Origin: Microthrixaceae bacterium
GTDB lineage: Bacteria; Actinomycetota; Acidimicrobiia; Acidimicrobiales; Microtrichaceae
Assembly (NCBI GenBank): GCA_023957975.1
Contig: JAMLGM010000001.1
Span: 1 to 64,000 of the forward strand
DNA: 64,000 nucleotides
Direction: 5' to 3'
In this document: positions 6,932 to 39,456 of the stretch, one piece after another
How the letters are laid out: the number at the start of each line of letters is the position of its first letter
Numbering within the stretch: the first letter of the stretch is position 1
Program-made: the position numbers and the translations under genes
The notes under the pieces: generated by a model
Told to the model about the DNA's origin: nothing
Databases searched by the model: none
The model's input: the letters and a program-made list of their open reading frames with translations, nothing else

Positions 6932-6945
6932 GTACCGACCGGTAC
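6932..6945. promoter_or_regulatory. Motif I operator candidate, divergent promoter
   Basis: GTACCG-AC-CGGTAC, 6-bp arms with a 2-bp centre, 12 bp before the E1-alpha start and 45 bp before the SDR start. The core ACCGACCGGT is repeated in intergenic regions at 13.7, 21.97, 26.97 and 32.05 kb. It is probably a TetR-family operator controlling both directions (inference). Confidence 0.6.
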
Positions 6946-6956
6946 GATAACCGCTC

Positions 6957-8117
6957 ATGGCCGGCAACGATGAACTTCTCGAGATGTATCGACGCATGGC
7001 GGTGATCCGCGGCTTCGAACAGCGCGTCTCGGTGCTCTACCGCAACGGTGAGGTGCCGGGGTTCGTCCACCTGTCGATCGGCCAGGAGGCCACCGCGGTC
7101 GGTGCGTGCTGGGCGCTGCGGAGCGACGACGTCATCACCTCCACCCATCGCGGTCACGCCCACTGCCTGGCCAAGGGGCTCGATCCGACGGCGATGTTCG
7201 CCGAACTGATGGGTCGCGACGGCGGCACCAATCGAGGTCGAGGCGGGTCGATGCACATTGCCGATCCGAACCTGGGGATCTTCGGAGCGAACGGCATCGT
7301 CGCCGCTGGCCTGCCCATCGCCGCGGGTGCGGCCACCGCGGCCCAGCTGCGGGCCGACGATGCGGTGGTCGTCGCGTTCTTCGGCGACGGTGCGGTCGCT
7401 CAGGGAGCCTTTCACGAGGCGGTGAACCTGGCGGCGGTCTGGGAACTGCCGGTCGTGTTCTTCTGCGAGAACAACGGGTACGCCGAATTCTCGCCAGCCG
7501 AAGCCCAGCACGCAGCGCCACTGTCGAGCCGTGCCGCCGGCTATGGGGTGGGGTTCACGGCGATCGACGGAAACGACGTCGTCGGCGTGGCCGAGGCGAT
7601 GGGCGGAATCGTCGAATCGGTCCGCACGGGTGCTGGACCGGTGATCGTGGAGGCGACCACCTATCGCTGGCACGGCCACTACGAGGGAGATCCCGAGCGA
7701 TACCGCACCCCCGAGGAAGTGGAGGCCGCCAAGGATCGCGATCCGCTCGTGGTCGCCCATCGTCGTCTGGTCGATTCCGGCACTGCGAGTGACGACATCG
7801 ACCGAATCGATGTCGAGGTCGCAGCAGAACTCGACTCGGCGATCGTTACGGCTCGGGCGATGCCGGTGCCGCCGTTGGAGTCGTTGCGCGACTTCGTGGT
7901 GCGCGAGCGCCCGAGGATCGACGAGGTGGGGTGTGACACTTCTTGTAGACGGTCGTTACCAGGAAGGAATGACAGGACGATATGTCTACGAATCGCAGGA
8001 AGTTCACCGATGAGTTCAAGGCCGACGCGGTCCAACTCGTCGTGGCTGGTGACCGGCCGATCGCGCAGGTCGCCAGGGAGCTGGAGGTCAATGAGAGTTC
8101 GCTCGGGTATTGGGTGA
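6957..8117 (+). CDS. Thiamine-dependent 2-oxoacid dehydrogenase E1 alpha subunit, 3' end cut by IS3
   Basis: E1-alpha of the pyruvate/acetoin/branched-chain dehydrogenase type, which with E1-beta decarboxylates a 2-oxoacid using thiamine diphosphate. The native part is about 325 codons (6957-7931), near the usual AcoA/PdhA length. It carries the conserved STHRGHAHCLAKG segment, the GRGGSMH loop and the ThDP motif GDGAVAQGAFHEA...CENN. From 7932 the frame runs into the left end of an IS3 element and adds about 60 foreign residues, stopping at 8117. No E1-beta, E2 or E3 gene follows; the IS pile occupies that place. The protein may fold but has no visible partner, so the enzyme is probably inactive unless the partner is elsewhere. 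Confidence 0.85.
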   Translation: MAGNDELLEMYRRMAVIRGFEQRVSVLYRNGEVPGFVHLSIGQEATAVGACWALRSDDVITSTHRGHAHCLAKGLDPTAMFAELMGRDGGTNRGRGGSMHIADPNLGIFGANGIVAAGLPIAAGAATAAQLRADDAVVVAFFGDGAVAQGAFHEAVNLAAVWELPVVFFCENNGYAEFSPAEAQHAAPLSSRAAGYGVGFTAIDGNDVVGVAEAMGGIVESVRTGAGPVIVEATTYRWHGHYEGDPERYRTPEEVEAAKDRDPLVVAHRRLVDSGTASDDIDRIDVEVAAELDSAIVTARAMPVPPLESLRDFVVRERPRIDEVGCDTSCRRSLPGRNDRTICLRIAGSSPMSSRPTRSNSSWLVTGRSRRSPGSWRSMRVRSGIG

Positions 8118-8272
8118 AGGCGTACCGGGCGCAGCACCCGGACTCGGAGATCGCGCCGATGCCGGTGGAAGCGGCGCGGATCGCTCGACTGGAGGCGGAG
8201 AACCGGCGGCTGGCCGAGGAGAACGCGTTCTTGAAAAAAGCGGCGGCCTTCTTCGCGAGGGAGCAGCGGTGA
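7982..8272 (+). CDS. IS3-family transposase OrfA
   Basis: A 96-residue DNA-binding subunit. A helix-turn-helix occupies residues 5-50 (RKFTDEFKADAVQLV). A leucine-zipper segment (IARLEAENRRLAEENAFLKK) ends the protein. An A6 run at 8234-8239 near its 3' end would allow -1 ribosomal frameshifting into OrfB, the usual way IS3 elements make the OrfAB transposase. Its stop overlaps the OrfB GTG by 4 bp. Confidence 0.9.
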   Translation: MSTNRRKFTDEFKADAVQLVVAGDRPIAQVARELEVNESSLGYWVKAYRAQHPDSEIAPMPVEAARIARLEAENRRLAEENAFLKKAAAFFAREQR

Positions 8273-9159
8273 GCGAGAAGTTCACGCTGATACACGCGCA
8301 GAAGGCCACCTTCACGATCGAGTTGATGACACGACTGCTCGGGGTTTCACGCGCTGGCTACTACGCGTGGGCGAAGCGTCTGGGCTTGCTGTCACCGATG
8401 GCGACGCGGCGAGCGGAGTTGACCGAGCGGATCAAGAAGATCCACGACGACTCGAACGGTGTCAACGGGTTCCGGCGGGTGCTCGCCGAGCTGGCCCGTC
8501 AGGGTGTCGCGGCGTCGGAGGGCCTGGTGCGCAAGATCATGCGGGAACTGGGGATCTTCGGGGTCCAGCCCCACACCCGCAAGCGCACCACGATCCCCGC
8601 TGAAGATGCCGTCGATCGTCCCGATCTGCTCAAGCGGGACTTCACCGCCGACCGGCCCGGTGTCCGCTTCGTTGGTGACATCACCTACTTGCGCACCGGG
8701 GAAGGATGGCTGTATCTGGCGACGGTGATCGACTTGTTCAACCGAGAGGTGGTGGGCTGGTCGATGGCCGACCATATGCGCACCGAACTGATCACCGATG
8801 CCCTGAAGATGGCCCGCACCCACGGGCGCATCGAGCCGGGCGCCCTGTTCCACTCGGATCGCGGAAGCCAGTACACCTCTGACGATTACGCCAAACTCGC
8901 GAAGGCTTTCGGAGTTCGTTTGTCGGTCGGGCGGACGGGGGTGTGCTGGGACAACGCTGTCGCGGAATCGTGGTTCTCGATGCTCAAGAACGAGATGTAC
9001 TACCGGCACGCCTTCCCCACCCGGCGGAAGGCGAGATTCGCCGTGATGCAGTACATCGAGGTGTTCTACAACCGCCGCCGGCTTCATTCAGCGCTCGGCT
9101 ACCGCACCCCCGTCGAGACCCGCGCCGACTACTACGCCCGGACCGCAACCGCGGCCTGA
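8269..9159 (+). CDS. IS3-family transposase OrfB (DDE integrase)
   Basis: A 296-residue catalytic subunit, with an N-terminal HTH_21-like part and an rve integrase core. The DDE residues lie in VGDITYLRT, FHSDRGSQYTS and CWDNAVAESWF. The GTG at 8269 overlaps the OrfA stop; the open frame extends back to 8110, as expected for a frameshift fusion. It appears intact. Confidence 0.92.
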   Translation: MSEKFTLIHAQKATFTIELMTRLLGVSRAGYYAWAKRLGLLSPMATRRAELTERIKKIHDDSNGVNGFRRVLAELARQGVAASEGLVRKIMRELGIFGVQPHTRKRTTIPAEDAVDRPDLLKRDFTADRPGVRFVGDITYLRTGEGWLYLATVIDLFNREVVGWSMADHMRTELITDALKMARTHGRIEPGALFHSDRGSQYTSDDYAKLAKAFGVRLSVGRTGVCWDNAVAESWFSMLKNEMYYRHAFPTRRKARFAVMQYIEVFYNRRRLHSALGYRTPVETRADYYARTATAA

Positions 9160-12544: not shown

Positions 12545-13693
12545 CTATGCGCTGGGGGTGAGGGTTCGGCCGATGACCATGTGTTGGATCTCGTTCGTAC
12601 CTTCGCCGATTTCGAGCACCTTGGCGTCGCAGTAGAAGCGGGCGACGGGCGATTCGAGCATGTAGCCGAGTCCGCCGTGGATCTGCACGGCCTCCGATGC
12701 CGCCGACATTGCCAGGCGACTCGCCTTGAGTTTCGCCATCGACGCCTCTTTCAGGAACGGCTTGCCAGCGTCGCGTAACGCCGCCGCCCGGTAGGTCAGC
12801 CACCGGGCCGCTTCGAGTTCGGTAGCGATGTCGGCGAGCTTGAACTGAATGGCCTGGAACTTGGCGATCGGTTGGCCGAATTGTTGGCGTTGATGTGCGT
12901 AGTCGACGGCCATGTCCAACACCGCCTGCGTGAGGCTGAGCGACAGGGCGGCGATGGAGATGCGTCCGACTTCGAGGGCGCTGAGGAACTGGCTGAGCCC
13001 CATCTCGGGGTCGCCGATGAGGTGATCGTCGGGCACGAACACGTTGTCGAAGAAGAGTTCTCGGGTGTCGAGTCCCTTCCAGCCGATGCCGCGCATCTTG
13101 GGTCCCATCGTGAACCCCGGAGTGTCCTTCTCGACGACGAAGCTGGCGAACATCGCGTTGTCGTCGGAGCCGGTGCGTGCCAACAGGGTCACCCCGAAGC
13201 TCATGTCGGTGCCGGCGTTGGAGATGAACGTCTTGGCGCCGTTGATGAGCCAGCCGCCATCGACACGTTCGGCACGGGTGCGGATACCGCGGGCGTCGGA
13301 GCCGGCATCGGGTTCGGTCAGGCCGAACGCCCCGAGCGCGGTGCCTTCGGCGAGGGGGCGTAACCACCGTTCGCGCTGGTCGTCGTTGCCGAACAACAGC
13401 AGCGGCAACGAGCCGATCGTGACGTGGGCCTGCCAGGCCGCGGCGACCGACTGGTCCGCGTGGCCGATCTGTTCCATCGCTGCGACGAACCCGACCGTGG
13501 TCATCTCGATGCCGCCCCAGCGTTCGGGAATCAACATTCCGAGCAGGCCGAGTTCGCCCATTTCCCGCAGGAGATCGGTGGGACACACCGCCGCCTCCCA
13601 GGCCTCGGGTGCCCGTGGGGCGATCTCGTTGCGTGCGAAATCCCGGCACAGATGTGCAAGTTCGCGTTCTGCTTCCGTCAGCTCGAAGTCCAC
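12545..13693 (-). CDS. Acyl-CoA dehydrogenase
   Basis: A 382-residue full-length acyl-CoA dehydrogenase: oxidises an acyl-CoA to the 2-enoyl-CoA, passing electrons through FAD to electron-transfer flavoprotein. FAD/substrate motifs are GLTEPDAGSD and TFISNAG, with the Arg-Gln helix QRQQFGQPIAKFQAIQ. The probable catalytic Glu lies in GGLGYMLESPVARFY, and the C-terminal signature is EIGEGTNEIQ. The start is GTG 13693. It diverges from the BVMO operon with a motif I palindrome between them. It is a typical homotetrameric form, unlike the paired forms later in the window. Confidence 0.92.
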   Translation of the reverse strand: MDFELTEAERELAHLCRDFARNEIAPRAPEAWEAAVCPTDLLREMGELGLLGMLIPERWGGIEMTTVGFVAAMEQIGHADQSVAAAWQAHVTIGSLPLLLFGNDDQRERWLRPLAEGTALGAFGLTEPDAGSDARGIRTRAERVDGGWLINGAKTFISNAGTDMSFGVTLLARTGSDDNAMFASFVVEKDTPGFTMGPKMRGIGWKGLDTRELFFDNVFVPDDHLIGDPEMGLSQFLSALEVGRISIAALSLSLTQAVLDMAVDYAHQRQQFGQPIAKFQAIQFKLADIATELEAARWLTYRAAALRDAGKPFLKEASMAKLKASRLAMSAASEAVQIHGGLGYMLESPVARFYCDAKVLEIGEGTNEIQHMVIGRTLTPSA

Positions 13694-13703
13694 ATTTGTA
13701 TAC

Positions 13704-13718
13704 TAACCGGTCGGTACA
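13704..13718. promoter_or_regulatory. Motif I operator candidate, ACAD/BVMO divergent promoter
   Basis: TAACCGGTCGGTACA, the reverse complement of the motif I core ACCGACCGGT (core 13706-13715). It lies 10 bp upstream of the minus-strand ACAD start and about 40 bp before the BVMO start, so it would control both. Confidence 0.6.
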
Positions 13719-13755: not shown

Positions 13756-15396
13756 ATGCAACCAAACGATCTTGAACCGTCCGACCGAGGTGTCGATGTC
13801 GACGTGCTCATCGTCGGCGCCGGGGTCACGGGCATCTACCAGCTCTACCGGGCACTCGAGTGCGGGTTCAGCGCCGAGATCGTCGAGGCCGGCTCCGGGG
13901 TCGGCGGGACGTGGTTCTGGAACCGCTACCCGGGCGCCCGGTTCGACTCGGAGAGCTACACCTACGCCTACCTGTTCTCGCAGGAACTGTTCGAGGAGTG
14001 GGAGTGGAGCGAGCATTTCGCCGAGCAGGGCGAGACCGAGCGCTACCTGAACCACGTTGTCGATCGTTTCGATCTGCGCCGTCACATTCGCTTCGGCACC
14101 CGGGTTGCTTCGGCGGTGTGGGACGAGGCCGGCGCACGATGGGTCGTCACCTTCGGCGACGGTTCGAGGCGCACCGCTCGCCATGTCGTCGCCGCCACGG
14201 GCGTGTTGTCGGTGCCCTTCTACCCAGACGTCGAGGGCCGCGAGGACTTCGCGGGCGAGTCGTATCACACCGGATTGTGGCCCGCCGAGCCGGTAGATCT
14301 CGTCGACAAGCGGGTGGCGGTGATCGGCACGGGGTCAAGCGGCGTGCAGATCATCCCGGTCATCGCGCCCGAGGTCGCCTCGCTCACGGTGTATCAGCGC
14401 AGCCCCAACTGGTGCACCCCGCTCAACAACTCGCCGATCACCGCCGCCGAACAGGCCGAACTGCGGGCGAATTTCGAGGAGATGCGCGAGGTGCTCAACA
14501 CCTCGATCGCCGGCTTCCTGCACGAACCCCATGACCGCAATGCCTTCGACGACACCGACGCCCAACGCCAGGCGTTCTTCGAAAAGATGTGGGCGAGTCC
14601 GGGCTTTTCGAAGATGTCGTCGAACTACCTCGACCTGTTGTTCGACGAGGCGGCGAATCGGGCCTGGTGCGACTTCATCGAGGCCAAGGTGCGTTCGATC
14701 GTCACCGACCCCGCCAAAGCCGACAAACTCGTTCCCACCGACCATCGCTACGGCGAGAAGCGTCCGCCCTTCGTCACCGACTACTACGAGACGTTCAACG
14801 ATCCGAAGGTGTCGATCGTCGACCTGCGGGCCACGCCCATCGTTCGGGTGACCGAGACGGGCATCGAGACCACCGAGGGGCTCGTCGAACTCGACGTGAT
14901 CATCTGGGCGACCGGATTCGACTTCGGCACCGGCGCGCTCAATCGCCTCGGCGTCGTCGGGCGTGACGGGGTGGCACTCACCGAGCATTGGGCCGACGGC
15001 CCGACGACCTTCCTCGGCGTGCAGACCAGCCGGTTCCCCAACTTCTATTTCCCGGGTGGTCCGCACGCCGCGGCGGGAAACAACCCTCGCTACAACGGCG
15101 ATCAGGTCGACTTCGTCATCGACTTGTTGGTCCACGCCCGCGACCACGGATTCGACGTGATCGAGGTCGGCGCCGATGCCGAACGGCGTTGGACCGACAT
15201 GGTGGATCGGGGGGCGGTGGCCGCACCGTTCGGGGAGAAGAGCTACTTCTTCGGCACCAACATTGCGGGCAAGCCGGTGAAGTACCTGCTGAACTCCGGA
15301 GGTCGGCCGAAGCTGTTCAAGGAGATCGAACGCGTGCACAACACCGACTTCGCCGCCTTCGACTTCTCGACTGCTGCGGAGTCCTCGGAGCGATGA
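13756..15396 (+). CDS. Baeyer-Villiger-type flavin monooxygenase
   Basis: A 546-residue FAD/NADPH-dependent monooxygenase that would insert oxygen next to a ketone, giving an ester or lactone. The N-terminal FAD motif GAGVTG is at residues 21-26. The BVMO fingerprint FAGESYHTGLWP is at about 165-176, and the second Rossmann motif GTGSSG is near 191. The start at 13756 has a GGGGGA ribosome site; longer starts reach into the divergent promoter. It is the first gene of a six-gene operon, and the stop overlaps the CoA ligase start by 4 bp. In steroid and cyclic-ketone catabolism such enzymes prepare ring opening; the substrate here is not known. Confidence 0.9.
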   Translation: MQPNDLEPSDRGVDVDVLIVGAGVTGIYQLYRALECGFSAEIVEAGSGVGGTWFWNRYPGARFDSESYTYAYLFSQELFEEWEWSEHFAEQGETERYLNHVVDRFDLRRHIRFGTRVASAVWDEAGARWVVTFGDGSRRTARHVVAATGVLSVPFYPDVEGREDFAGESYHTGLWPAEPVDLVDKRVAVIGTGSSGVQIIPVIAPEVASLTVYQRSPNWCTPLNNSPITAAEQAELRANFEEMREVLNTSIAGFLHEPHDRNAFDDTDAQRQAFFEKMWASPGFSKMSSNYLDLLFDEAANRAWCDFIEAKVRSIVTDPAKADKLVPTDHRYGEKRPPFVTDYYETFNDPKVSIVDLRATPIVRVTETGIETTEGLVELDVIIWATGFDFGTGALNRLGVVGRDGVALTEHWADGPTTFLGVQTSRFPNFYFPGGPHAAAGNNPRYNGDQVDFVIDLLVHARDHGFDVIEVGADAERRWTDMVDRGAVAAPFGEKSYFFGTNIAGKPVKYLLNSGGRPKLFKEIERVHNTDFAAFDFSTAAESSER

Positions 15397-17099
15397 GCCC
15401 GGCCGCGGAGGTGTCCCGAGGAGTGTTGAGCGGCCCGTCGCTTGAGAGCGTCGAGGGCATTGGCGCGCTCACCCTTGGGGGATTCCTTCGCGAGGTCACC
15501 GAACGATTCGCCACCAACGAGGCGATCGTGTTCGACGACCCGCTGACCGACCACGACGCCGGCGTTGCGACCGTGCGCCTCACCTATGCGCAGGTGTGGG
15601 AGCGAACCCGTCGCATCGCCGCCGCCCTCGTCGCCGCCGGTGTTGAACCCGGCGAGTTCGTCGGCGTCGTCATGGGCAATCGCCCCGAGGCGATCGAGTC
15701 GATTTTCGCCGCGGCCATGATCGGTGCGGTCGCGGTGCCGATGTCGACCTTCGCTCCGCCGCCGGAACTGCAGGCGATGCTCGAGATCTCGGGAGTCTCG
15801 GTCGTGGTGACCCAGCCCCGGCTGCTCGCCCGGAGTTTCGGCGACGACCTCTGCGCATTGCAGCCCCGGGTGCCTGGGCTGCGTCGCGTCGAGGTGGTGG
15901 GCGAGCCTGGCTGGGCCGAGTTTCTCGCCACGGGCGACGCTGTCGGGTCGGAGGGACTCGACGCTCGACTGGCGGTGGTGAAACCCGAGGACCCCGGCCT
16001 GGTCATCTTCAGTTCCGGCACCACGAGCCGACCCAAGGCGATGCTGCACACCAACCGGGCGCCCAGCCAACAATTCTGGGTGCAGGCGCAGATCTTCGGG
16101 CGCACACAACAGACCCGCATGTGGACGGCGTTGCCGCTGTTTTGGACCGCCGGGTTCAACACCGCTGTCGGCGCCACCCTCGCGGCCGGTGGGTGTTGGG
16201 TCGCGCAGGAGACCTTCGAGGCTGGCGAGGCGCTCGCGTTGATGGGCCGCGAGCGCGTCACCGAGCCCTACGCCATGCCCCACCAGGGAGCGGCGCTCGC
16301 CGAGCACCCGCACTGGCCGTACGCCGATCTGTCCTCGCTGCGTTGTGTGTTCGGCAAGTCGGTGTTCGCCCGGCATCCATCGGTCGACGGCGACACCGGC
16401 TGGACGATGCCGGTGGGATACGGACTTTCGGAGACCTGCGCGTTCGTGTCGGGTCATCGCAGTGACGCTGGTCGTGACGCCATGAAGCGGTCGGTCGGGG
16501 GGTTGCTGCCGGGAATCGAGGTGCGGATCTCCTCCTTCGAGACCGGCGACGCGCTCGATGTCGGCGAGGTCGGCGAGATCACGGTGCGGGGGTCGACGGT
16601 GATGCTCGGGTACCTCGGCCGCGACCCCGCAGAGTGCTTCGACGCGGATGGGTTTTTCCACACCGGCGACAGCGGCCACCTCGACTCCGCCGGTGAGCTG
16701 CACTACGACGGCCGTGCCACGGAGATGATCAAGTCCGGCGGCGCCAACATCTCCCCGGCCGAAATCGAGGTGGCGTTGCGGGCGTGCGCGGGGGTGAAAC
16801 TCGCCCGCGTGATCGGCGTCGACGACGAACGTCTCGACCAGATCGCCGTCGCCTGTGTCGAGGTGGCCGACGGCGCCACGCTCACCGCGCACGACGTCAC
16901 CTCGTTCCTTCGTGAACGGATCGCCACCTACAAGGTTCCGCGGCGGGTGCTGATCTTCGACGCCGGCGAGATCCCCCTCACCTCGAGTGGCACCAAGGTC
17001 CGCGACGCCGAGTTGCGTTCACTCATCGCCGAACGCGTCGCCGCCGAACGCCTCGCCGGCGAGCCAGCACCGACCGAACCCGCACCGACCGAACGTTGA
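15393..17099 (+). CDS. AMP-dependent acyl-CoA synthetase/ligase
   Basis: A 568-residue ANL-superfamily ligase: activates a carboxylic acid to its CoA thioester through an acyl-AMP. The P-loop FSSGTTSRPK is at about 206-215. GYGLSET, the YDGRATEMIKSGG hinge and the SGTKVRD C-terminal catalytic-Lys region are all present. The start at 15393 overlaps the BVMO stop (ATGA). The C-terminus ends in short PAPTE repeats. Its place after a BVMO suggests it activates an acid released by ring or ester opening, but substrate specificity cannot be read. Confidence 0.9.
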   Translation: MSPAAEVSRGVLSGPSLESVEGIGALTLGGFLREVTERFATNEAIVFDDPLTDHDAGVATVRLTYAQVWERTRRIAAALVAAGVEPGEFVGVVMGNRPEAIESIFAAAMIGAVAVPMSTFAPPPELQAMLEISGVSVVVTQPRLLARSFGDDLCALQPRVPGLRRVEVVGEPGWAEFLATGDAVGSEGLDARLAVVKPEDPGLVIFSSGTTSRPKAMLHTNRAPSQQFWVQAQIFGRTQQTRMWTALPLFWTAGFNTAVGATLAAGGCWVAQETFEAGEALALMGRERVTEPYAMPHQGAALAEHPHWPYADLSSLRCVFGKSVFARHPSVDGDTGWTMPVGYGLSETCAFVSGHRSDAGRDAMKRSVGGLLPGIEVRISSFETGDALDVGEVGEITVRGSTVMLGYLGRDPAECFDADGFFHTGDSGHLDSAGELHYDGRATEMIKSGGANISPAEIEVALRACAGVKLARVIGVDDERLDQIAVACVEVADGATLTAHDVTSFLRERIATYKVPRRVLIFDAGEIPLTSSGTKVRDAELRSLIAERVAAERLAGEPAPTEPAPTER

Positions 17100-17110
17100 A
17101 TGGAGACCTC

Positions 17111-18316
17111 ATGACATCACAGGACCAGACCTCACAGGACCAGCCGACCCTCGACACCAGCGATCTCGACCGCCACATGGGCGTGCCGATGGAGCCGGGC
17201 GAGTTGAAGGAGCCGGTCGCGCTCAACGACATCCGGCGGTGGGTGCAGGCGATGCACTACCCGAACCCCCTGCACTACGACGAGCGCTGGGCGGCCGAAA
17301 GCCGTTTCGGAACCATCGTGGCGCCGCAGCCGATGACGGTCGCCACCGACACCAGTCACGGGTGTTCTCCTGCGCAGGTCGGCAAGATTCCCAACAGTCA
17401 CCTGATCTTCGGTGGCGACGACTGGTGGTTCTTCGGGCCGCGGATCTGGCCGGGCGATCACATGGTCTGTCACCGGATGCCGTACGACTACAAGGTGTCC
17501 GACACCAAGTTCGCCGGGCCGACGTGTTTCCAGCGCGGCGACACCCTCTACATCAACCAGCGCGGCGAGCGGGTGGCGCTGCAGCGTTCGACGGCGATTC
17601 GCTATCAGGTGCGTGAGGCGAAGGAGAAGAAGCTGTTCTCCGAGCCGAAGGAACCCGAATGGAGCGATGCGAAACTCGCGGAGCTCGACGAGATCAAGGG
17701 TTGGTTCATCGATCAGATCCAGACGCTGCGCCACGACCCGCGCACCTATGAGTCGGTGAGCGTCGGCGACATGCTCGCCCCGAACGTGTTGGGCCCCCAT
17801 TCCCTCGCCAGTTTCACCACCGAGTGGCGGGCGTTTCCCATGACGACGTGGGGTGCGACGGCGAAGGGCCCGACCACCGTGCGGGCCGAGGAGCTCGGTT
17901 ACACCAAGGAGATGGCGGGCTTTGAAGGCGACCGGCGAATGGAACGCACCAACCCCGAACTCACCGACGGCGCCTACTACGGACCGTCGCGGGGGCACCT
18001 GCAGCCTCGCTGGGCTCAACACGTCGGCATGCCGCGTGGCTACGGCTACGGGGCGTCGATGGGTGCGTGGATCATCGACTATGTGGCGGCGTGGGCCGGG
18101 GAGTGGGGCTTTGTCACCCACGCCACCTCGCAGTACCGCAACCCGGCCTTCACCGGCGACGCCACGTTCCTGTCGGGTGAGGTGATCGGCAAGGAGATCC
18201 TGCGCCGAGGCCGTCACCGCGTGAAGGTCGCTGTCGAGTTGCGCAACCAGGACGAGACGGTGATGGCCAAGGCCACCGTCGAGGTCGAGTTGCCAAGCAC
18301 CGACACACTGTCCTGA
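17111..18316 (+). CDS. MaoC-like / hotdog dehydratase family protein
   Basis: A 401-residue protein with two hotdog modules. The N-terminal FAS1-like dehydratase domain (about residues 15-160) has PNPLHYDERWA and GTIVAPQPMTVA. A second half (about 200-395) has GPHSLASFTTEWRAFP and GYGYGASMGAWIIDY. The family hydrates enoyl-CoA thioesters. The start at 17111 is supported by GGAGACC upstream. It follows the ligase by 11 bp and would provide the hydration step of the pathway. The usual MaoC Asp-His catalytic pair is not obvious, so the exact reaction is uncertain. Confidence 0.78.
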   Translation: MTSQDQTSQDQPTLDTSDLDRHMGVPMEPGELKEPVALNDIRRWVQAMHYPNPLHYDERWAAESRFGTIVAPQPMTVATDTSHGCSPAQVGKIPNSHLIFGGDDWWFFGPRIWPGDHMVCHRMPYDYKVSDTKFAGPTCFQRGDTLYINQRGERVALQRSTAIRYQVREAKEKKLFSEPKEPEWSDAKLAELDEIKGWFIDQIQTLRHDPRTYESVSVGDMLAPNVLGPHSLASFTTEWRAFPMTTWGATAKGPTTVRAEELGYTKEMAGFEGDRRMERTNPELTDGAYYGPSRGHLQPRWAQHVGMPRGYGYGASMGAWIIDYVAAWAGEWGFVTHATSQYRNPAFTGDATFLSGEVIGKEILRRGRHRVKVAVELRNQDETVMAKATVEVELPSTDTLS

Positions 18317-18384
18317 GCAGCACTTTCCTGAGCAGCGCCCGTCAATGCCTTGCCCGTCAAACCCCACCGAACCAGGAGCGAATC

Positions 18385-18702
18385 ATGATTCTCGTCGTCG
18401 TCAAACAACCCGTCCGTGCCAAGTACGCGGACGACTGGCCCGAACTCGTGCGCGAGTACACCGAGGCCACCCGCGCCGAGCCGGGCAACATCTCCTTCGA
18501 CTGGTATCGCAGCCCGGAGGATCCGAACCTGTGGATCCTCGTCGAGGTGTTCGCCGACAAGGCCGCCGGCGACGCGCACACCGCGTCGGAGCACTTCGCC
18601 AAGGCGAGTGGCGAGATGGCCCGCTGGTGCGCCGCCATCCCCGAGATCATCCACATGGAGGGGCCGGGGGAGGGCTGGTCGCTCGCCGGCGAGGCCTCCT
18701 AG
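18385..18702 (+). CDS. Antibiotic biosynthesis monooxygenase (ABM) domain protein
   Basis: 105 residues, one ferredoxin-like ABM/YgiN domain: MILVVVKQPVR, EPGNISFDWYRSPEDPNLWILVEVFAD and the HTASEHF segment are typical. Members act as cofactor-free quinol-type monooxygenases or as small accessory proteins. AGGAG precedes the start. It sits within the BVMO operon, so it may handle a product or protect against a reactive intermediate. Confidence 0.85.
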   Translation: MILVVVKQPVRAKYADDWPELVREYTEATRAEPGNISFDWYRSPEDPNLWILVEVFADKAAGDAHTASEHFAKASGEMARWCAAIPEIIHMEGPGEGWSLAGEAS

Positions 18703-18750
18703 CGCCGTGGCACGTTCGACGATGAGACCATGTCCGAGGGAGGTGCGCCC

Positions 18751-19518
18751 ATGACCAGCGACCGCCAACAGCCGACGTTTCCGACCTTCGACACGGTCGA
18801 GGAGGAGCGGCGTCATCGCAAGCAACGTCTCGCCGCGGCGTTTCGTCTCTTCGGGGCCTTTGGGTTCGACGAGGGGGCGGCGGGCCACATCACCGCCCGC
18901 GATCCGGAGTTGACCGATCACTTCTGGGTTAACCCGCTGGCGATGAACTTCAAGCGCATCCGGGTGCGCGACCTGTTGTTGGTGAACGCCGCGGGCGAGG
19001 TCGTGCACGGCACCTGGCGGGTGAACAAGGCGGCGTTCATGATCCACTCGCACATTCACGAGGCGCGCCCCGACGTGGTGGCGGCGGCGCATTCGCATTC
19101 GATCTACGGCAAGACGCTGTCGACCCTTCGCCAGCCGCTGCTGCCACTCACCCAGGATGCGTGCGCGTTCTACGGCGACCATGCGGTGTTCGACGACTAC
19201 GGGGGTGTGGTGTTCGAACACGACGAGGGCGATCGCATCGCCGCCGCCTTGGGTTCGCACAAGGCGGCGATCCTCGCGAACCACGGGCTGTTGACCGTCG
19301 GGGCGACCGTGGACGAGGCGGCGTGGTGGTTCATCACGATGGAACGGTCGTGTCAGGCCCAACTGCTCGCCGAGGCGGCCGGCGTTCCGGTGCCGATTCC
19401 CCACGAGCAGGCGGCGGCCACAGCGTCGATGATCGGACATCCGATGTCGGGGTGGTATTCGTTCCAGCCGCTCTATGACTGGATCGTGACCGAACAACCC
19501 GACTTCTTGGAGGAGTAG
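18751..19518 (+). CDS. Class II aldolase/adducin family protein
   Basis: 255 residues, one class II aldolase/adducin domain. Zinc ligands are visible in AAAHSHSIYG and ANHGLLTVG, with ITARDPE near the N-terminus. Metal-dependent aldol cleavage or decarboxylation is expected. The start at 18751 is set by the strong GGGAGG 8 bp upstream (an ATG at 18730 lacks one). It is tightly followed by a CoA ligase (3 bp), so it works in the same pathway. Confidence 0.85.
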   Translation: MTSDRQQPTFPTFDTVEEERRHRKQRLAAAFRLFGAFGFDEGAAGHITARDPELTDHFWVNPLAMNFKRIRVRDLLLVNAAGEVVHGTWRVNKAAFMIHSHIHEARPDVVAAAHSHSIYGKTLSTLRQPLLPLTQDACAFYGDHAVFDDYGGVVFEHDEGDRIAAALGSHKAAILANHGLLTVGATVDEAAWWFITMERSCQAQLLAEAAGVPVPIPHEQAAATASMIGHPMSGWYSFQPLYDWIVTEQPDFLEE

Positions 19519-19521
19519 GCG

Positions 19522-21961: not shown

Positions 21962-21971
21962 GGAAATCATC

Positions 21972-21985
21972 GTACCGACCGGTAC
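21972..21985. promoter_or_regulatory. Motif I operator candidate, SDR/AcuI divergent promoter
   Basis: GTACCGACCGGTAC, identical over 14 bp to the site at 6932-6945. It lies 11 bp from the SDR start and 36 bp from the reductase start. Confidence 0.6.
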
Positions 21986-25768: not shown

Positions 25769-26833
25769 TCAGACGGTGGCGACGGGGGTGAGCGGCGAGC
25801 CGACGACGCCGGGCAGGCGCAGCGGGGGAGCGGTGAGCAGGAACCGGCTTCGGTTGTGCTCGCGCAGCCACAGCGCCAGGTCGTGCAGGTACCACATCTC
25901 GCCGAGGGGCACGCCGAGTTTGAACAGGCACAGGTGATGAATGGGCAGGAACGAGTGGCGTTCGGGCTCGCGGTCCTTACCCAGCAGTCCCTCCACGGCG
26001 TAGTTGTCGGCGACGAGTGCGGAGATCTGTGAGGCCTCGATCCACTCCAACAACGCCGGGTCCTTCGCGTCGAGATAGCTCGAGGTCGTGAACAGCTTGC
26101 GGGGGTCGGGGTTGCCGCCCCATTCGAGGATCCGCGTGGCGAAACCGGTGTGGAGCAACAAGATGTCGCCGGGTTCGACGACCACGCCGTCCTCGTCCAT
26201 GATCCGCTGCAGGGTCGCCAGGTCGACCGCGCGCCATTCGTCGCTCAGGTGCGCTTCGAGATCGACGAGCACACCTCGCCCCTGCACCCCGTGCGCCGCC
26301 ATGTGCTCCAACCCGAGGTGATGGGCGAAACAACGGTGGCCGCTGCCGTCGCCGCGGGCGTCCTCACTCGGCCCGACGAGGTCGATGCCCGCCCGGTAGC
26401 CGTTGTAGAAGACCGGCTCGTCGACCCCGTCGCCATCCGCGTCGAACTCGGCGCCGACGTGGGCGAGGGAGTCCCACTGGGTCGAATACTGCAGCGACAA
26501 CGTGACGACATCATCGGTCCACACGTCGACGTATTTCGGGTCGCCGAAGTCGGGCATCTCGCTCATGTGGACGTTGTAGAAGGTGTCGCGCACCCCCTCC
26601 ATGTCCTCGGTCGGGGCGATGCGCGGCGGGTGGCGACGCTGATTGAGCGCGGTGCCGCCGGGGAAATCGAGCGGCAGGCTCAGGCAGAACGAGATGCCCT
26701 CGGTGACCTCGCGCACGCCCTCGAGCACCTTGTTCGGCGTGAGCAGGTTGATGCGACCCAGTTCGTCGTCATCGCCCCAGTCGCCCCAGGTCGAGCCCTC
26801 CGGTCGTTGCACCCAACGCTTCGCCACCTTCAT
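25769..26833 (-). CDS. Cyclase-family hydrolase (kynurenine formamidase-like fold)
   Basis: A 354-residue member of the putative-cyclase family (PF04199), metal-dependent amide/ester or lactone hydrolases. Seen features are STQWDSLAHVG, the family metal region HxG..DxxxH corresponding to GLEHMAAHGVQGRGVLVDL, and GDILLLHTGFA. The start at 26833 has AGGGGG upstream; the frame extends to 26926 without similarity and into the palindrome. It may open a lactone or ring-amide in the catabolic block. Confidence 0.82.
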   Translation of the reverse strand: MKVAKRWVQRPEGSTWGDWGDDDELGRINLLTPNKVLEGVREVTEGISFCLSLPLDFPGGTALNQRRHPPRIAPTEDMEGVRDTFYNVHMSEMPDFGDPKYVDVWTDDVVTLSLQYSTQWDSLAHVGAEFDADGDGVDEPVFYNGYRAGIDLVGPSEDARGDGSGHRCFAHHLGLEHMAAHGVQGRGVLVDLEAHLSDEWRAVDLATLQRIMDEDGVVVEPGDILLLHTGFATRILEWGGNPDPRKLFTTSSYLDAKDPALLEWIEASQISALVADNYAVEGLLGKDREPERHSFLPIHHLCLFKLGVPLGEMWYLHDLALWLREHNRSRFLLTAPPLRLPGVVGSPLTPVATV

Positions 26834-26941: not shown

Positions 26942-26973
26942 AGGCGGGTGCGGCGACGTCGTTGCCGAATTGT

Positions 26974-26983
26974 ACCGATCGGT
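26974..26983. promoter_or_regulatory. Motif I operator candidate before the COG2159 amidohydrolase
   Basis: ACCGATCGGT, a perfect palindrome and one-base variant of the motif I core, in the context TGT-core-CTAAC shared with the site at 32053. Confidence 0.5.
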
Positions 26984-27030
26984 CTAACGTACACGCGGAT
27001 TCGCGATTGAGGAGAATGAAGTATCCGAAT

Positions 27031-27151: not shown

Positions 27152-28393
27152 ATGACCGAACGTGATTTCGTCGTCTCAGCCGACGGGCATCTGCTCGAGC
27201 CCATCACCCTGTTCAAGGAGCGCCTGCCCAAGGAACTGCGTCATCTCGCGGTGTGGGAGGAGGAGTTCGAGATCGAGCCCCTCGTCGAGGGCGGCGCCCG
27301 AGTGTTTCGCAAGCTCCACACCCCCGGGTTCGAGGGGTGGACCGTCTCTCGCTATCGCCAAACCACCGGGCGCACCCCCGAAGGCGACCCCGAACACATC
27401 CTGTCCGACATGGATGCCGACGGCGTCGACGCCCAGGTCCTGCACCCCAACCTGTCGCAGTTCGGCCTGTTCACCGACCATCACGAGATGTCGATCGCTC
27501 ACGCCCGCGTCTACAACGACTACGTCATCGAGCGTTTCAGCCCGTACTTCCATCGCCTCGCCCCCACCGCACCGATCCCGCTGACCGACATCGGCGACGC
27601 CGTCACCGAAATCGAACGTGTTGCGGCCGGCGGATTCAAGGCCGTGCTGCTTCCGGCCACCGCACCTCGTCCGTACTACCTGCGCGACTACGACCCGGTG
27701 TGGGCGGCGATCCAGGACACCGGGATGAGCGTGTTCGTGCACACCCAGACCGGCGGCATCCGGGTCAACGATCCCGAGGCGCTCACCCTCAAGATCATGA
27801 TGGAGAACGCCCAGCAGGTGAACCAGCCGATGACCGAGAAGATGGCGGCCAAGCGCATGGTGACCCAGGCGGTCATGCAACCCGTGGTGCCCCAGACCCT
27901 CATCTGTCAGCTCATCGGCGGCGGCGTGCCCGAGCGCTTCCCGGACCTGCATTTCTCACTCATCGAGTTCAACGCGCACTGGCTGGCATCGCTCGTCGGG
28001 TCGATGGGCAAATGCTGGGTGACCGGCATCGGTCAGGACCCCGACTGGTGGATCGGCGTGTGGGACGACACCCGCCCCAACGACGACCAACCCGGCATGG
28101 CGCAGCTGTTCAAGCTCAACGAGAAATGGCTGTACCCGCTCATGCCGAGTGAGTACGTGCAGCGTCAGTTCCACGTGTCGTTCCAGGACGACCCGGTCGC
28201 CGTCGCGTGCCGTCACGTCACCGGCCTGTCGACGATCATGTGGGGCAACGACTATCCGCACGCGGAGGGGACCTTCCGCGGCAGCCAGGAACTTCTGTCA
28301 TCGCTGATGGCGGGAGTTCCCGACGAGGAGCGCAAGGCGATGGTGGGCGGAACCCTCGCAGATCTGTTGGGCTTCGAACGCACCGCAGCGTGA
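27152..28393 (+). CDS. COG2159 amidohydrolase (ACMSD-like TIM barrel)
   Basis: A 413-residue amidohydrolase family 2 protein, a zinc-dependent hydrolase or decarboxylase with a TIM barrel. The N-terminal metal motif is SADGHLLEP, in the DxHxxEP style of this branch. MDADGVDAQVLHPN, SVFVHTQTGG and the late Asp motif WGNDYPHAEGTF follow. GGGGGAGG precedes the start. It belongs to a common actinobacterial group of undefined substrate, often placed in steroid or aromatic degradation clusters. It is convergent with the TetR gene 20 bp downstream. Confidence 0.85.
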   Translation: MTERDFVVSADGHLLEPITLFKERLPKELRHLAVWEEEFEIEPLVEGGARVFRKLHTPGFEGWTVSRYRQTTGRTPEGDPEHILSDMDADGVDAQVLHPNLSQFGLFTDHHEMSIAHARVYNDYVIERFSPYFHRLAPTAPIPLTDIGDAVTEIERVAAGGFKAVLLPATAPRPYYLRDYDPVWAAIQDTGMSVFVHTQTGGIRVNDPEALTLKIMMENAQQVNQPMTEKMAAKRMVTQAVMQPVVPQTLICQLIGGGVPERFPDLHFSLIEFNAHWLASLVGSMGKCWVTGIGQDPDWWIGVWDDTRPNDDQPGMAQLFKLNEKWLYPLMPSEYVQRQFHVSFQDDPVAVACRHVTGLSTIMWGNDYPHAEGTFRGSQELLSSLMAGVPDEERKAMVGGTLADLLGFERTAA

Positions 28394-28413: not shown

Positions 28414-29064
28414 TCAGGCCAGGATGCCCCGCAGGAAGATGTCGGCGAAGGGTTCGGCGATGTCGTGGGCGACGACGCCCTTTTCGCCGCGCAACCACAG
28501 GTAGGTGTAGTTGTGCATGCCCAGCCAGGCGAGTGTGGTGAGTCGGGGATCGAGGTCGCGGAACTCCCCGGCGTCGATGCCGGCCTGCAGCACCGACTCG
28601 ACGGCCGCCTCGTAGCGTCGCCTCCGTGCCCGAAACGTCGCCGCCCGCTCCTCGGTGAGCGCCGGGAATTCGTGCAGGAACACCCACACGTGATCGGGGT
28701 AGCGGTGAATGACATCGAGCAGTTCGTCGCCGAGCAAGGCCAGCTTCGTGGCCGGGGATCCGTCGCCGTCGATCACCCGATCGGCACCCGCGAGCACCTC
28801 GTCCATCACCCGGTCGTGGATCGCTGCGAGCAGCTCCTCCTTCGAGCCGATGTAGTGGTAGAACGCGCCCTTGCCGAGCCCGTTTGCGTCGCACAATTCG
28901 ACGATGCCGGTGGCGTGATAGCCCTGCTTGGCGAACACCTTGGCCGAGGTGTCGACGATCGATTCGCGGCGAGCGAGCCACTTGTCGCTCCGGGCGCGTT
29001 CGTCGGCGGGCGGGGATGGCTCGGCGGGCGAGGATGGCTCTGGCATCGTGGTTGGCTCGGACAT
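28414..29064 (-). CDS. TetR-family transcriptional regulator
   Basis: A 216-residue repressor-type regulator. After a 25-residue Pro/Ser tail, the TetR helix-turn-helix is at about residues 36-80 (SAKVFAKQGYHATGIVELC, KGAFYHYIGSKEELL). The rest is the ligand-binding domain. The start at 29064 has GGAG at the right spacing. It diverges from an SDR gene with only 65 bp between them, so it probably regulates that SDR. It is the only regulator in the motif I block, hence a candidate reader of ACCGACCGGT sites (inference; no clear motif I site in its own promoter). Confidence 0.88.
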   Translation of the reverse strand: MSEPTTMPEPSSPAEPSPPADERARSDKWLARRESIVDTSAKVFAKQGYHATGIVELCDANGLGKGAFYHYIGSKEELLAAIHDRVMDEVLAGADRVIDGDGSPATKLALLGDELLDVIHRYPDHVWVFLHEFPALTEERAATFRARRRRYEAAVESVLQAGIDAGEFRDLDPRLTTLAWLGMHNYTYLWLRGEKGVVAHDIAEPFADIFLRGILA

Positions 29065-30057: not shown

Positions 30058-31617
30058 TCACCGCTCACGCAGCTCACGCTTGAGCACCTTGCCCGACGGA
30101 TTGCGGGGGAGTGCCTCGATGAGGGTCACCGCCGTCGGCACCTTGAACTTAGCGAGCCGTGCCCGGCAATGGTCGATGAGTTCGTCGGGCGTGGTCGCCT
30201 CGTCGGAGGTCACCACGAACGCGACCGGAACCTCGCCCCAGCGGTCATCGGGTCGTGCGACCACGGCCGCCTCGACGACCGCGGGGTGTTCATAGATCGC
30301 CCGCTCGACCTCGGAACTGGCGATGTTCTCGCCGCCCGACACGATCATGTCCTTGAGACGATCGACGATGTAGACGAACCCGTCGGTGTCGCGAACCCCG
30401 ATGTCGCCGGTGTGGAACCACCCTCCCGCAAACGCCTTCGCCGTCGCGTCGGGGTCACGCCAATAGCCGGTGAACACCTTCGGGCCGCGCAACACCACCT
30501 CGCCGGGCTGATCGGCGGGCAGCGACGCGCCGTGTTCATCCCAGATGTCGAGCTCGAGGTACTGACACGGCCGACCGACGCTGCCGAGCTTGGCGATCGT
30601 GTGGTCGGGATCGAGAAAGGTGTCTCCGGACACCGTCTCGGTGAGGCCGTACGCATCGGCGAACCAGGCGGAGGGAAAGATGCGACCGATGCGCTCGATC
30701 GTCGGGATCGGCATCTTCTCGCCGCCAGCGATGATCACCTTCACCGACGACAGGTCCCGTGTTTCGATGCCCTCGACGTCCAGCACGGCGCGCACCATCG
30801 CGGGTGCCGCCCAGATGACGGTTACCTTCGATCGTTCGATCTCGTCCACCACGGCCGCGGGGTCGAAGCTGCGGTGCACGATGGTGCGCGCCCCGACCGA
30901 CATCATCGAGGTCGTCACGAGATCGAGCGCACCGACGTGATACAGCGGCCCACACGCGAGCCCGACGTCCGCGCTGGTGAACCCGAGCTCCGCGACGTGC
31001 GCGGCGTTCTTCCACGCCAGGTTCTCATGGGTGATCATCACGCCCTTGGGGCGACCCGTCGTGCCGGAGGTGTACATGAGCCGGTGCAGGTCGCTGCCGG
31101 CCGCAGGGAGTCGCTCGCAGCGTTCATCGGTGGCCGCGAGGTCGTCGAAGCGATGCCACCCGGCGGCAGCTGCTGCCGCGGTCGCGGCTGGGTTGGCGCC
31201 GATCGCCACCCGCACGAGTTGGTCGTGTTCGCACAGGTCGGCCGCCGCCGCTCCCAACGCCAGGGTGTCGGCGTCGCACACGAGCGCGACGGCCTGGGAG
31301 TGATCGAGGATGTAGCGCACCTCGTCGGGGGCGAGTCGCCAGTTGATCGGCATGGCGACGGCACCGAGGGTGTTGGCCGCGAAAATCGTCGTGAGGAAGT
31401 CCGCGCTGTTGTAGGCCAACAGGGCGACGACCTGGCCGTCGTCGACCCCGAGACCCCGCAGCGACGCAGCGACCGCGGCCGAACGGTCGGCCATTTCGGC
31501 GTAGCTGATCGCCCGACCCTCGAACTCGACGATCGGCGCGTCCGGACGGCGTCGGGCGTGAAGTTCCAGCACCGCGACCCAACTCATGTCGGGAGATGTC
31601 ATGGGAGTCGAGGTCAT
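30058..31617 (-). CDS. AMP-dependent acyl-CoA synthetase/ligase
   Basis: A 519-residue ANL ligase: MYTSGTTGRPKGVMITH, AYGLTETVS, WFHTGDIG and C-terminal LPRNPSGKVLKREL with the catalytic Lys. The start at 31617 overlaps the SnoaL-like gene by 4 bp (ATGA), so the two are coupled. Resembles FadD13/FadD3-like medium-chain or aromatic-acid ligases, but the substrate is not determinable. Convergent with the SDR. Confidence 0.92.
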   Translation of the reverse strand: MTSTPMTSPDMSWVAVLELHARRRPDAPIVEFEGRAISYAEMADRSAAVAASLRGLGVDDGQVVALLAYNSADFLTTIFAANTLGAVAMPINWRLAPDEVRYILDHSQAVALVCDADTLALGAAAADLCEHDQLVRVAIGANPAATAAAAAAGWHRFDDLAATDERCERLPAAGSDLHRLMYTSGTTGRPKGVMITHENLAWKNAAHVAELGFTSADVGLACGPLYHVGALDLVTTSMMSVGARTIVHRSFDPAAVVDEIERSKVTVIWAAPAMVRAVLDVEGIETRDLSSVKVIIAGGEKMPIPTIERIGRIFPSAWFADAYGLTETVSGDTFLDPDHTIAKLGSVGRPCQYLELDIWDEHGASLPADQPGEVVLRGPKVFTGYWRDPDATAKAFAGGWFHTGDIGVRDTDGFVYIVDRLKDMIVSGGENIASSEVERAIYEHPAVVEAAVVARPDDRWGEVPVAFVVTSDEATTPDELIDHCRARLAKFKVPTAVTLIEALPRNPSGKVLKRELRER

Positions 31618-32006
31618 GTCAGGACCTTGCGCGATGCGAACTTCCAGGTGTCGCCGTCTGCGACGAGGCGATCGTGATAGCGGGCCACGAACTGCACCGA
31701 CCACGCCTCGTCGATCTTGACCAGCAACACGACGTCGCTGATCGCGGTGGCCTCGGTGTCACTCCATGTGTCGACGAGCGTGTTGGACACGAGATGGCGT
31801 TGTGGGACTCGGGGCACCCAGCGCTCGTACATGGTGCGCAACGCCTCGATTCCCGCCGCCGGGGGTTTGCCCTCGAGCTCGAAGGACCCGTCGGCGGCGA
31901 ACGTCGCGATGACATCGTCGGTCCGACCATCGTCGAGGGCCAGCGTGTAGCGGGCGATGGTCGCCCGGACCCCTTCGGACACGTCTGCGAATGTGCGACT
32001 CGACAT
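31614..32006 (-). CDS. SnoaL-like (NTF2-fold) protein
   Basis: 130 residues, one cone-like SnoaL domain: YTLALDDGRTDDVIATFAADGSFEL and the closing ARYHDRLVADGDTWKFASRKV. The fold occurs in small isomerases, dehydratases and ring-hydroxylating dioxygenase accessory subunits. The start at 32006 has AGGGGGAT upstream. It is divergent from a Rieske oxygenase and leads into a CoA ligase. It could be an isomerase, or an accessory protein of the oxygenase. Confidence 0.82.
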   Translation of the reverse strand: MSSRTFADVSEGVRATIARYTLALDDGRTDDVIATFAADGSFELEGKPPAAGIEALRTMYERWVPRVPQRHLVSNTLVDTWSDTEATAISDVVLLVKIDEAWSVQFVARYHDRLVADGDTWKFASRKVLT

Positions 32007-32050
32007 CAAATCCCCCTGATCGACGGTGTTTATCGGAACCGTCGTTGAAT

Positions 32051-32064
32051 GTACCGACCGGTTG
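32051..32064. promoter_or_regulatory. Motif I operator candidate, SnoaL/Rieske divergent promoter
   Basis: GTACCGACCGGTTG; core ACCGACCGGT at 32053-32062, followed by TGGTCTAAAC. Located 45 bp from the minus-strand start and 55 bp from the Rieske start. Confidence 0.58.
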
Positions 32065-32118
32065 GTCTAAACCTACTGCAACGATGTCGCCGGGGACGTC
32101 CCGAGCGGCCTCAGGGGG

Positions 32119-38185: not shown

Positions 38186-38253
38186 GTTGTGGTGCTCCTG
38201 GAGTCGGTGATGTCGGTGCGGGTGATGTCGGCGGGTGCGTGCCGAGGTCGGTC

Positions 38254-39435
38254 TCAGCGCTGGCTTTGTTGAGCGCGTGCGAGCAGGCCGCGGGCGATGA
38301 CGAGTCGTTGGATTTCGTTGGTACCCTCGCCGATGACCATGAGGGGCGCGTCGCGGTAGTAGCGCTCGACGGGGAACTCGGTGGTGTAGCCGACACCGCC
38401 GTGGATGCGCATGGCCTCCATCGACAGTTCGAGGGCGGTCTCGCTGGCGAACAGCTTTGCCATGCCGGCTTCGACGTCGCAGCGTTCCCCGGCGGCCTTT
38501 CGGTTGGCGGCATTTTGGGTGAGGAGGCGTGCGGCTTCGAGCCGGGTGGCCATGTCGGCAATCTTGAGTTGGATGGCCTGATGTTCGGCGATCGGTTTGC
38601 CGAAGGTGGATCGCTGTTGGGAGTAGCTGAGGGCAGCGTCGAACGCGGCCCGTGCCACGCCGACGGCCCGCGACGCGATGTTGATGCGGCCCACCTCGAG
38701 CACCGAGAGGATCTGGGGCAGGCCGCGGCCGTCGGTGCCGATCAGGTTGGCCGCCGGGATGCGGTGATCGACGTAGGTCATCTCGACGGTTTCGACGCCC
38801 TTGTAGCCGAGTTTGCCGACGTTCTTGGATGTGGAGACCCCTTCGAAGACCGGCCCCGGGTCCTTTTCGACGACGAAGGTCGAGATGCCGGCCTCGGTGC
38901 GTGCGGCCAAGGCGACCACCGATGCCCGTTCGCCGTTGGTCACCCACGCCTTGGTTCCGTTGAGGACGAACTCGTCGCCGTCGCGGGTCGCCTTGCAGGA
39001 GATGTTGCGGGTGTCGCTGCCGGCGTCGGGTTCGGACAGCGACAGCGCTCCACGCCGTTCGCCAGAGGCCATCGTCGGCAGGATGCGGCGCTGCTGTTCT
39101 TCATTGCCGTGATACATGATGAGCGTGGCGCACATCGTGTGGGTGTTGATGATGCCGGTGAGCGACATCCAGCCGTAGGCGAGTTCTTCGATGATGGCGA
39201 CATAGGTCAACAGATCGAGGCCGAGGCCACCGAGCGATTCGGGGATGGTGACGCCGAACAGGCCGAGGTCGCGCATCTTGGCCACGATGTCGGCGGGAAA
39301 CTCGTCGGCGTGTTCGAGGTCGCCGGCGACCGGGATGACCTCCTTGGCGACGAAGCGGCGGACGGTCTCGACGATCTCGCGGCGAACCTCGGGATCGGTC
39401 GCTCCGGTGGGGGTGGAACCTTCGGGGCTGCTCAT
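38254..39435 (-). CDS. Acyl-CoA dehydrogenase
   Basis: A 393-residue full-length homomeric-type acyl-CoA dehydrogenase: SLSEPDAGSD, KAWVTNG, QRSTFGKPIAEHQAIQ, probable catalytic Glu in GGVGYTTEFPVERYYRD, and VIGEGTNEIQ. The start at 39435 begins 24 bp from a degraded motif I. It is probably co-directional with, but separated by 68 bp from, tesB. It diverges from the ligase/ACAD/ECH operon. Confidence 0.92.
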   Translation of the reverse strand: MSSPEGSTPTGATDPEVRREIVETVRRFVAKEVIPVAGDLEHADEFPADIVAKMRDLGLFGVTIPESLGGLGLDLLTYVAIIEELAYGWMSLTGIINTHTMCATLIMYHGNEEQQRRILPTMASGERRGALSLSEPDAGSDTRNISCKATRDGDEFVLNGTKAWVTNGERASVVALAARTEAGISTFVVEKDPGPVFEGVSTSKNVGKLGYKGVETVEMTYVDHRIPAANLIGTDGRGLPQILSVLEVGRINIASRAVGVARAAFDAALSYSQQRSTFGKPIAEHQAIQLKIADMATRLEAARLLTQNAANRKAAGERCDVEAGMAKLFASETALELSMEAMRIHGGVGYTTEFPVERYYRDAPLMVIGEGTNEIQRLVIARGLLARAQQSQR

Positions 39436-39445
39436 GGCGAGAATG

Positions 39446-39456
39446 GTACCGACCGT
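39446..39456. promoter_or_regulatory. Degraded motif I site
   Basis: GTACCGACCGT: the left arm and centre of motif I are intact while the right arm is lost. Lies between divergent ACAD and ligase starts. Confidence 0.3.

Follow-up and report, generated by a model that had tools for sequence, protein, structure and literature searches.

Here we describe a palindromic DNA element that recurs in the promoter regions of a catabolic gene block of a Microthrixaceae bacterium (assembly GCA_023957975.1), together with the regulator that most likely acts on it. The stretch analyzed, called the window throughout, comprises the first 64,000 nt of contig JAMLGM010000001.1 in a genome of 3.6 Mb, and it carries the element at five sites within one 25-kb block. 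These five sites are very probably operators of the TetR-family regulator encoded in the same block at 28414-29064, which would repress the block's genes. Extended beyond its core, the motif is specific, lies in promoter position, and is conserved together with the TetR gene; palindromic predicted operators are found at the promoters of conserved targets in loci that also carry this regulator. These observations support the central idea of an earlier examination of the sequence (the original prediction), namely, that a catabolic regulon shares a TetR-type operator. With them, a catabolic block of lineages that are mostly known through metagenomes gains a probable regulator, an operator, and a delimited set of genes: the extent of the block is testable gene by gene, the inducing metabolite is open to a binding assay, and the matrix described below can be used to find members elsewhere.

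Sequence and specificity of the sites

A pattern search of the window placed the exact ten-base core ACCGACCGGT at 6934-6943 (+), 13706-13715 (-), 21974-21983 (+), and 32053-32062 (+), and a one-base variant, ACCGATCGGT, at 26974-26983, which bears out the five positions originally reported. The claim that the copies lie between genes stands as well, but the number lying between divergent genes, earlier put at four of the five, is five of five by the gene calls. The site at 6934 falls inside a called open reading frame (ORF; 6047-6958, 303 amino acids) that we judge to be over-long: because aligned orthologues of this protein, SDR2, are mostly shorter by about 44 residues at the site-bearing end, the site probably lies upstream of its true start. 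The predicted sites are as follows:

6931..6946, + strand: predicted operator site TGTACCGACCGGTACG, between SDR2 (6047, -) and E1-alpha (6957, +); matrix score 25.0
13703..13718, - strand: predicted operator site TGTACCGACCGGTTAG, between ACAD (12545, -) and BVMO (13756, +); matrix score 31.5
21971..21986, - strand: predicted operator site TGTACCGGTCGGTACG, near-symmetric, between SDR3 (21179, -) and the AcuI-like reductase (22021, +); matrix score 20.6
26971..26986, + strand: predicted operator site TGTACCGATCGGTCTA, between the PF04199 cyclase (25769, -) and the COG2159-type amidohydrolase (27152, +); matrix score 27.0
32050..32065, + strand: predicted operator site TGTACCGACCGGTTGG, followed by T, and with a second dyad overlapping the first, between the SnoaL-like gene (31614, -) and the Rieske oxygenase (32119, +); matrix score 26.6

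The core by itself does not mark the regulon. With one mismatch allowed, the window holds 20 copies against 11.9 expected and a maximum of 19 in 100 shuffles, a mild excess, and the exact core has 41 copies genome-wide; of the 37 beyond the window, 25 are in genes, 5 at gene edges, and 7 intergenic. The original prediction had noticed no copy inside genes and had proposed genic frequency as the test of its motif, a test that the bare core fails; we therefore discarded the bare core as a regulon mark. The distinguishing feature of the window sites is their flank: TACCGACCGGT or its complement occurs at nine places in the genome, four of them in the 25-kb block, and the extended strict motif TGTACCGRYCGGT has six genomic matches, namely, the five window sites and C4:378798-378813. 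With the motif extended in this way, the observation is confirmed. Among 61 near-relative genomes, 7 (the source genome counted) contain TGTACCGAYCGGTNNR, and of the same-family genomes sampled, G004 alone, beyond the source genome, has a close TetR (66% identity).

We also scored sites with a 20-column matrix trained only on the 47 strict sites of orthologue loci (see below), the window being held out. The five window sites are the five highest-scoring places of the window (20.6 to 31.5), ahead of the next separate place at 13.5 and of the top score, 17.8, obtained from ten triplet-shuffled versions of the window. A half copy near 39446 (GGTACCGACCGTGG), which had been counted toward the regulon, does exist in the sequence, and its membership is not supported, as it falls outside the 20 best window rows under this matrix, the lowest of which scores 8.2. 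Chance recurrence of a GC-rich palindrome would fit the frequency and mostly genic placement of the bare core, but not the clustering of the TGT-flanked form, which has five of its six matches in 3.6 Mb inside 25 kb, nor the abundance of the strict motif in orthologue loci (47 places, where permuted half-sites average 0.165); to this explanation we give next to no probability.

Conservation with the TetR gene

A scan of genome contigs for relatives of the TetR protein returned 47 loci, of which we kept 42 (L071 to L112; 52 to 76% identity; 667,852 bases), leaving L113 to L117 (25 to 41% in the best segment) out of all counts; L106, L110, and L112 hold a partial TetR at contig ends. The labels of the 42 loci are Acidimicrobiia and other actinobacterial metagenome-assembled genomes (MAGs), Frankia, Pseudofrankia, Acidiferrimicrobium, Trebonia, and Pseudonocardia. 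The strict motif occurs in them at 47 places in 29 loci, compared to none for the reversed control, and 200 permuted half-sites gave a maximum of 9, reached by TTGACCG, a near relative of the motif. Forty-five of the 47 places are in promoter position (from 300 bases ahead of a called start to 60 bases past it); the other two are within called ORFs, one of which (in L090) starts far too early according to the alignment. At a matrix score of at least 15, we counted 112 places in 40 of the 42 loci compared to 2 in the reversed sequences, with 96 places in promoter reach and 16 within called genes. Sixteen distant TetR loci (L055 to L070), all short, have no TGTACCG site.

The genes behind these sites recur. 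At the same threshold, and counting the orthologue loci that have the gene in question, a site lies directly before the cyclase in 14/14 loci, the Rieske oxygenase in 6/6, the COG2159-type gene in 17/20, ACAD in 16/22, BVMO in 11/16, E1-alpha in 14/26, and SDR2 in 9/21. As a separate observation, L073, which is labeled as a Bifidobacterium breve MAG, carries the cluster at 57 to 84% identity to the window proteins; probably, the label is wrong or the bin mixed.

The probable cognate regulator

The regulator to which we attribute the sites is encoded in the block itself:

28414..29064, - strand: TetR regulator with PF00440 and PF17932 (TetR_C_24) domains, the predicted cognate repressor from the family scan, the orthologue loci, and structure

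Both domains exceed their Pfam gathering scores (PF00440, 48.2 bits against a cut-off of 24; PF17932, 95.1 bits against 26.4) and, together with the fold, place the protein in the TetR family. Across 22 aligned TetR sequences, its recognition stretch shows strong conservation and reads GLGKGAxYHYIGSKEELL in most rows. Among the 30 of 61 called window ORFs covered by the family scans (spanning 4648 to 42269), it is the sole typical regulator; the ORF at 34016-34639 encodes an IclR/MarR-like helix-turn-helix fused to a nucleotidyltransferase domain.

The original prediction had left room for a cognate regulator encoded elsewhere. We correct this: the TetR of the block itself is the most likely cognate regulator, because (i) its orthologues are often preceded by a site and (ii) the site tracks its presence across genomes. 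Concerning the first point, 20 of the 41 orthologue loci scored (all but L110) have a matrix score of at least 13 in the 300 bases that precede the TetR match, a score reached at 7 places across all 667,852 bases in reversed sequence. Concerning the second, we sought the COG2159 gene (E value of 1e-60) in 397 genomes of the source's order and found it in 12. All nine of these with a TetR orthologue have a site scoring at least 20.3 upstream of COG2159, compared to none of the three without it (G035, G037, and G086), where no score exceeds 8.3; by hand calculation such a split has a probability of 1/220, with some of the genomes sharing a genus or family. One genome, G143, has two COG2159 fragments, one with the site and one that runs off the contig and so has no readable promoter. 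For these counts, 103 genomes matched the TetR at an E value of 1e-15; the 14 with at least 62% identity (G282 by a 94-residue fragment) were taken to have the orthologue, and the remaining matches, at most 37% identical among those listed, to lack it. The strict motif is present in 14/14 genomes with the TetR compared to 168/383 others (P = 1.4e-5), which points weakly in the same direction, and at least four motif matches were tallied by eye in 6/14 compared to 8/383.

Several results weigh against this assignment, or against the regulon as drawn. As had been noted originally, the window TetR lacks a clear site in its own promoter (best matrix score, -3.1); 21 of the 41 orthologue loci score below 13 upstream of the TetR, and by gene calls at a score of at least 15 a site precedes it in 15 of 38. 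L104 and L106 have no site at that threshold. The 14 genomes with the TetR hold 44 strict-motif matches against 24 for the reversed control (summed by hand). Some genes are weaker targets, with a site directly before the CoA ligase in 10/30 loci, SDR4 in 5/20, and the SnoaL-like gene in 1/6, and none is directly before SDR1 (0/22) or the P450 gene (0/7). Two window targets are rare in the cluster elsewhere: AcuI is found in 1 of the 42 loci (45% identity) and without a site, and SDR3 was tallied in none. Finally, kinship among loci and genomes makes the counts non-independent, and since the loci were gathered through the TetR itself, a second regulator could travel with the cluster.

A different TetR-type protein, encoded elsewhere, could thus own the sites while the local TetR controls something else. 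The empty promoter of the local gene would agree with this, as would the ACCG-N2-CGGT palindromes with other flanks that we find in intergenic positions elsewhere in the genome, at L028:4009 (thiolase, alcohol dehydrogenase), L030:3991 (glycerol-phosphate-oxidase-like), and L038:4045 (enoyl-CoA hydratase); these are perhaps operators of other TetR proteins, and other regulators of this genome probably use the core. Yet such a protein would have to explain the sites upstream of the orthologous TetR genes, one of them in L088, where COG2159, the cyclase, and BVMO are unseen, as well as the split among the 12 COG2159 genomes. We consider this alternative improbable and retain the TetR at 28414-29064 as the most likely owner of the sites.

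Site architecture and proposed mechanism

Including those of the window, 51 of 52 sites could be oriented, one being too near a contig end. Called starts lie to the left only of 12, to the right only of 13, on both sides of 21, and on neither side of 5. Because no orientation is preferred, the sites fit an operator better than a promoter element that works in one direction. We rejected on these grounds a promoter element for an alternative σ factor: a -10-like TANNNT box does occur at offset 16 in 14/51 sites (read rightward) and at offset 10 in 15/51 (read leftward), but the unbiased orientation to the targets, the distances to called starts (about 13 to 156 where positive), and the dyad symmetry of the core make this explanation very improbable.

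The start codons of E1-alpha, ACAD, and SDR3 come 13 to 14 bases after the core, with a -10-like box in between, an arrangement that suggests leaderless promoters blocked by the bound protein. In the right flank, a second, overlapping half-site (ACCGACCGGTYGGT type; core positions 11 to 14) matches in at least three of four letters in 17/51 sites and, among the five window sites, only at 32050.

From these features, we infer the following scheme of binding and repression. A dimer of the TetR protein, or possibly a pair of dimers where two dyads overlap, would bind TTGTACCGAYCGGTYNR, which sits on or beside the -10 region of divergent promoters, and would block them. The CoA ligases of the block would convert the substrate into a CoA thioester, which would bind the TetR core and release the protein from DNA, allowing transcription of the SDRs, E1-alpha, ACAD, BVMO, the ligases, the cyclase, the COG2159-type hydrolase, SnoaL, the Rieske oxygenase, and the AcuI-like reductase.

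Comparison with known TetR systems

The AlphaFold model of the protein (mean pLDDT, 86.7) matches PfmR best (3vpr; Z score of 23.7, root mean square deviation of 1.7, 184 residues aligned), in a tie with KstR2 (22.9), followed by 2ibd (21.6), AibR with isovaleryl-CoA (21.6), and Bacillus FadR (19.2), and phmmer against solved structures ranks 3dcf first (E value of 1.2e-24) and 3vpr second (1.6e-22). The protein has the same fold as KstR2, AibR, and Bacillus FadR, which are TetR proteins responsive to CoA thioesters, and the structure entries of AibR and FadR are titled with isovaleryl-CoA and stearoyl-CoA, respectively. The operators of these three regulators are other sequences than the window sites. 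By profile, the protein is neither a Bacillus-type FadR (NF053878, 50.3 bits against a cut-off of 200) nor a KstR (NF033703, 21 against 280).

Closer operators are found in two phenylacetate systems. In Thermus thermophilus, the TetR protein PfmR (TTHB023) represses genes of phenylacetate and of fatty acid metabolism; its published sites include TTTACCGACCGGTTGG and CTTACCGACCGGTTGG, and its in vitro consensus is (a/c)Y(g/t)A(A/C)YGryCR(g/t)T(c/a)R(g/t) (PMC7022988). Its published sites TACCGACCGGTTGG match the window site at 32050 in core and right flank; on the other hand, PfmR is 29% identical to the window protein over 184 residues, its target genes differ, and its consensus is broader. 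PaaR (BCAL0210), a Burkholderia cenocepacia TetR repressor of phenylacetate genes, has its operator ACCGACCGGTCGGT between the putative -10 and -35 elements, and this operator is described as a dual overlapping inverted repeat similar to QacR's (PMC2770484). The target genes of PaaR differ, and only 17 of our 51 sites match three or more of the four letters of such a second half-site. The window TetR very probably works like PfmR and PaaR, and we claim orthology to neither. A TetR operator known from Thermus and Burkholderia thus recurs in actinobacteria beside a homologue of the Thermus regulator.

The proposed mechanism is a familiar one: the block would be a regulon under a TetR repressor that senses CoA thioesters. 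Searches of the open-access literature returned no description of its gene set, no report of TGTACCGACCGG, and none that joins a TetR protein and an acyl-CoA dehydrogenase to the operator ACCGACCGG; on TetR regulons and binding sites in Acidimicrobiia they returned a single paper, on quorum sensing. We suggest tentatively, with slightly less than even confidence, that an acyl-CoA-sensing TetR regulon and a breakdown route for a cyclic, terpenoid-like acid, both undescribed, are common to Acidimicrobiia and to actinobacteria of the Frankia type, and that Thermus PfmR and Burkholderia PaaR preserve the operator code almost to the letter.

Genes of the block

The genes around the sites are listed below; FS denotes a gene call with a family scan.

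5232..6050, - strand: SDR1, directly downstream of SDR2 and presumably on a shared transcript (FS)
6047..6829, - strand: SDR2 (FS and alignment); start uncertain, the called ORF reaching 6958 and 6829 being estimated
6957..8117, + strand: dehydrogenase E1 alpha-type protein, PF00676 (FS)
12545..13693, - strand: acyl-CoA dehydrogenase, ACAD (FS)
13756..15396, + strand: Baeyer-Villiger-type monooxygenase, BVMO; best solved relative OTEMO
15393..21075, + strand: genes downstream of BVMO, probably cotranscribed (FS): CoA ligase (15393), FAS1-type dehydratase (17111), small ORF (18385, outside the family scan), class II aldolase (18751), CoA ligase (19522)
21179..21961, - strand: SDR3 (FS)
22021..23010, + strand: AcuI-type acrylyl-CoA reductase (NF051456, 499 bits, cut-off 440)
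25769..26833, - strand: putative cyclase, PF04199 (FS)
27152..28393, + strand: Amidohydro_2 protein, PF04909 (the label COG2159 is that of the original prediction)
30058..31587, - strand: AMP-forming CoA ligase, downstream of the SnoaL-like gene
31614..32006, - strand: SnoaL-like protein, PF13577
32119..33480, + strand: Rieske ring-hydroxylating oxygenase alpha subunit

The nearest solved relatives are PtmU3 and DitZ for the COG2159-type protein, pyruvate dehydrogenase E1 for E1-alpha, biphenyl-type dioxygenases for the Rieske oxygenase, and an uncharacterized protein for the cyclase, and the pathway could not be named from them. OTEMO has a part in camphor breakdown, and PtmU3 and DitZ have terpenoid roles. 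The block may act on a cyclic acid, perhaps of terpenoid-like character, that is activated by linkage to CoA, and the inducer may be one of the CoA esters of this acid.

Between E1-alpha and ACAD, the window carries genes for an rve integrase (8269, +) and a DDE transposase (9212, -) at 8269-10051, and in several orthologue loci (e.g., L072, L073, L080, and L081) E1-alpha and ACAD are adjacent or close. The block seems to have been split here by insertions.

Additional observations

The sixth strict match of the genome, C4:378798-378813 (L026:3999-4014), ends 10 bases before a called alpha/beta-hydrolase start and scores 21.8, making it a possible distant member of the regulon. Long hairpins around C1:518218 and C3:231981 were set aside. 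Within the window, an inverted repeat, ATAACCAGTGGTCGC...GCGACCACTGGTTAT, lies at 26900-26933, in the interval that separates the called start of the cyclase (26833) from the 26971 site; the leader running from that site to the start at 27152 contains an imperfect repetition of GTCGCTGTC/CAGCACTGTCGCTGTC (27020-27140). A long intergenic inverted repeat (CGCGAACTTTGTGC and its complement) is found at about 34720-34785, between 34639 and 34829.

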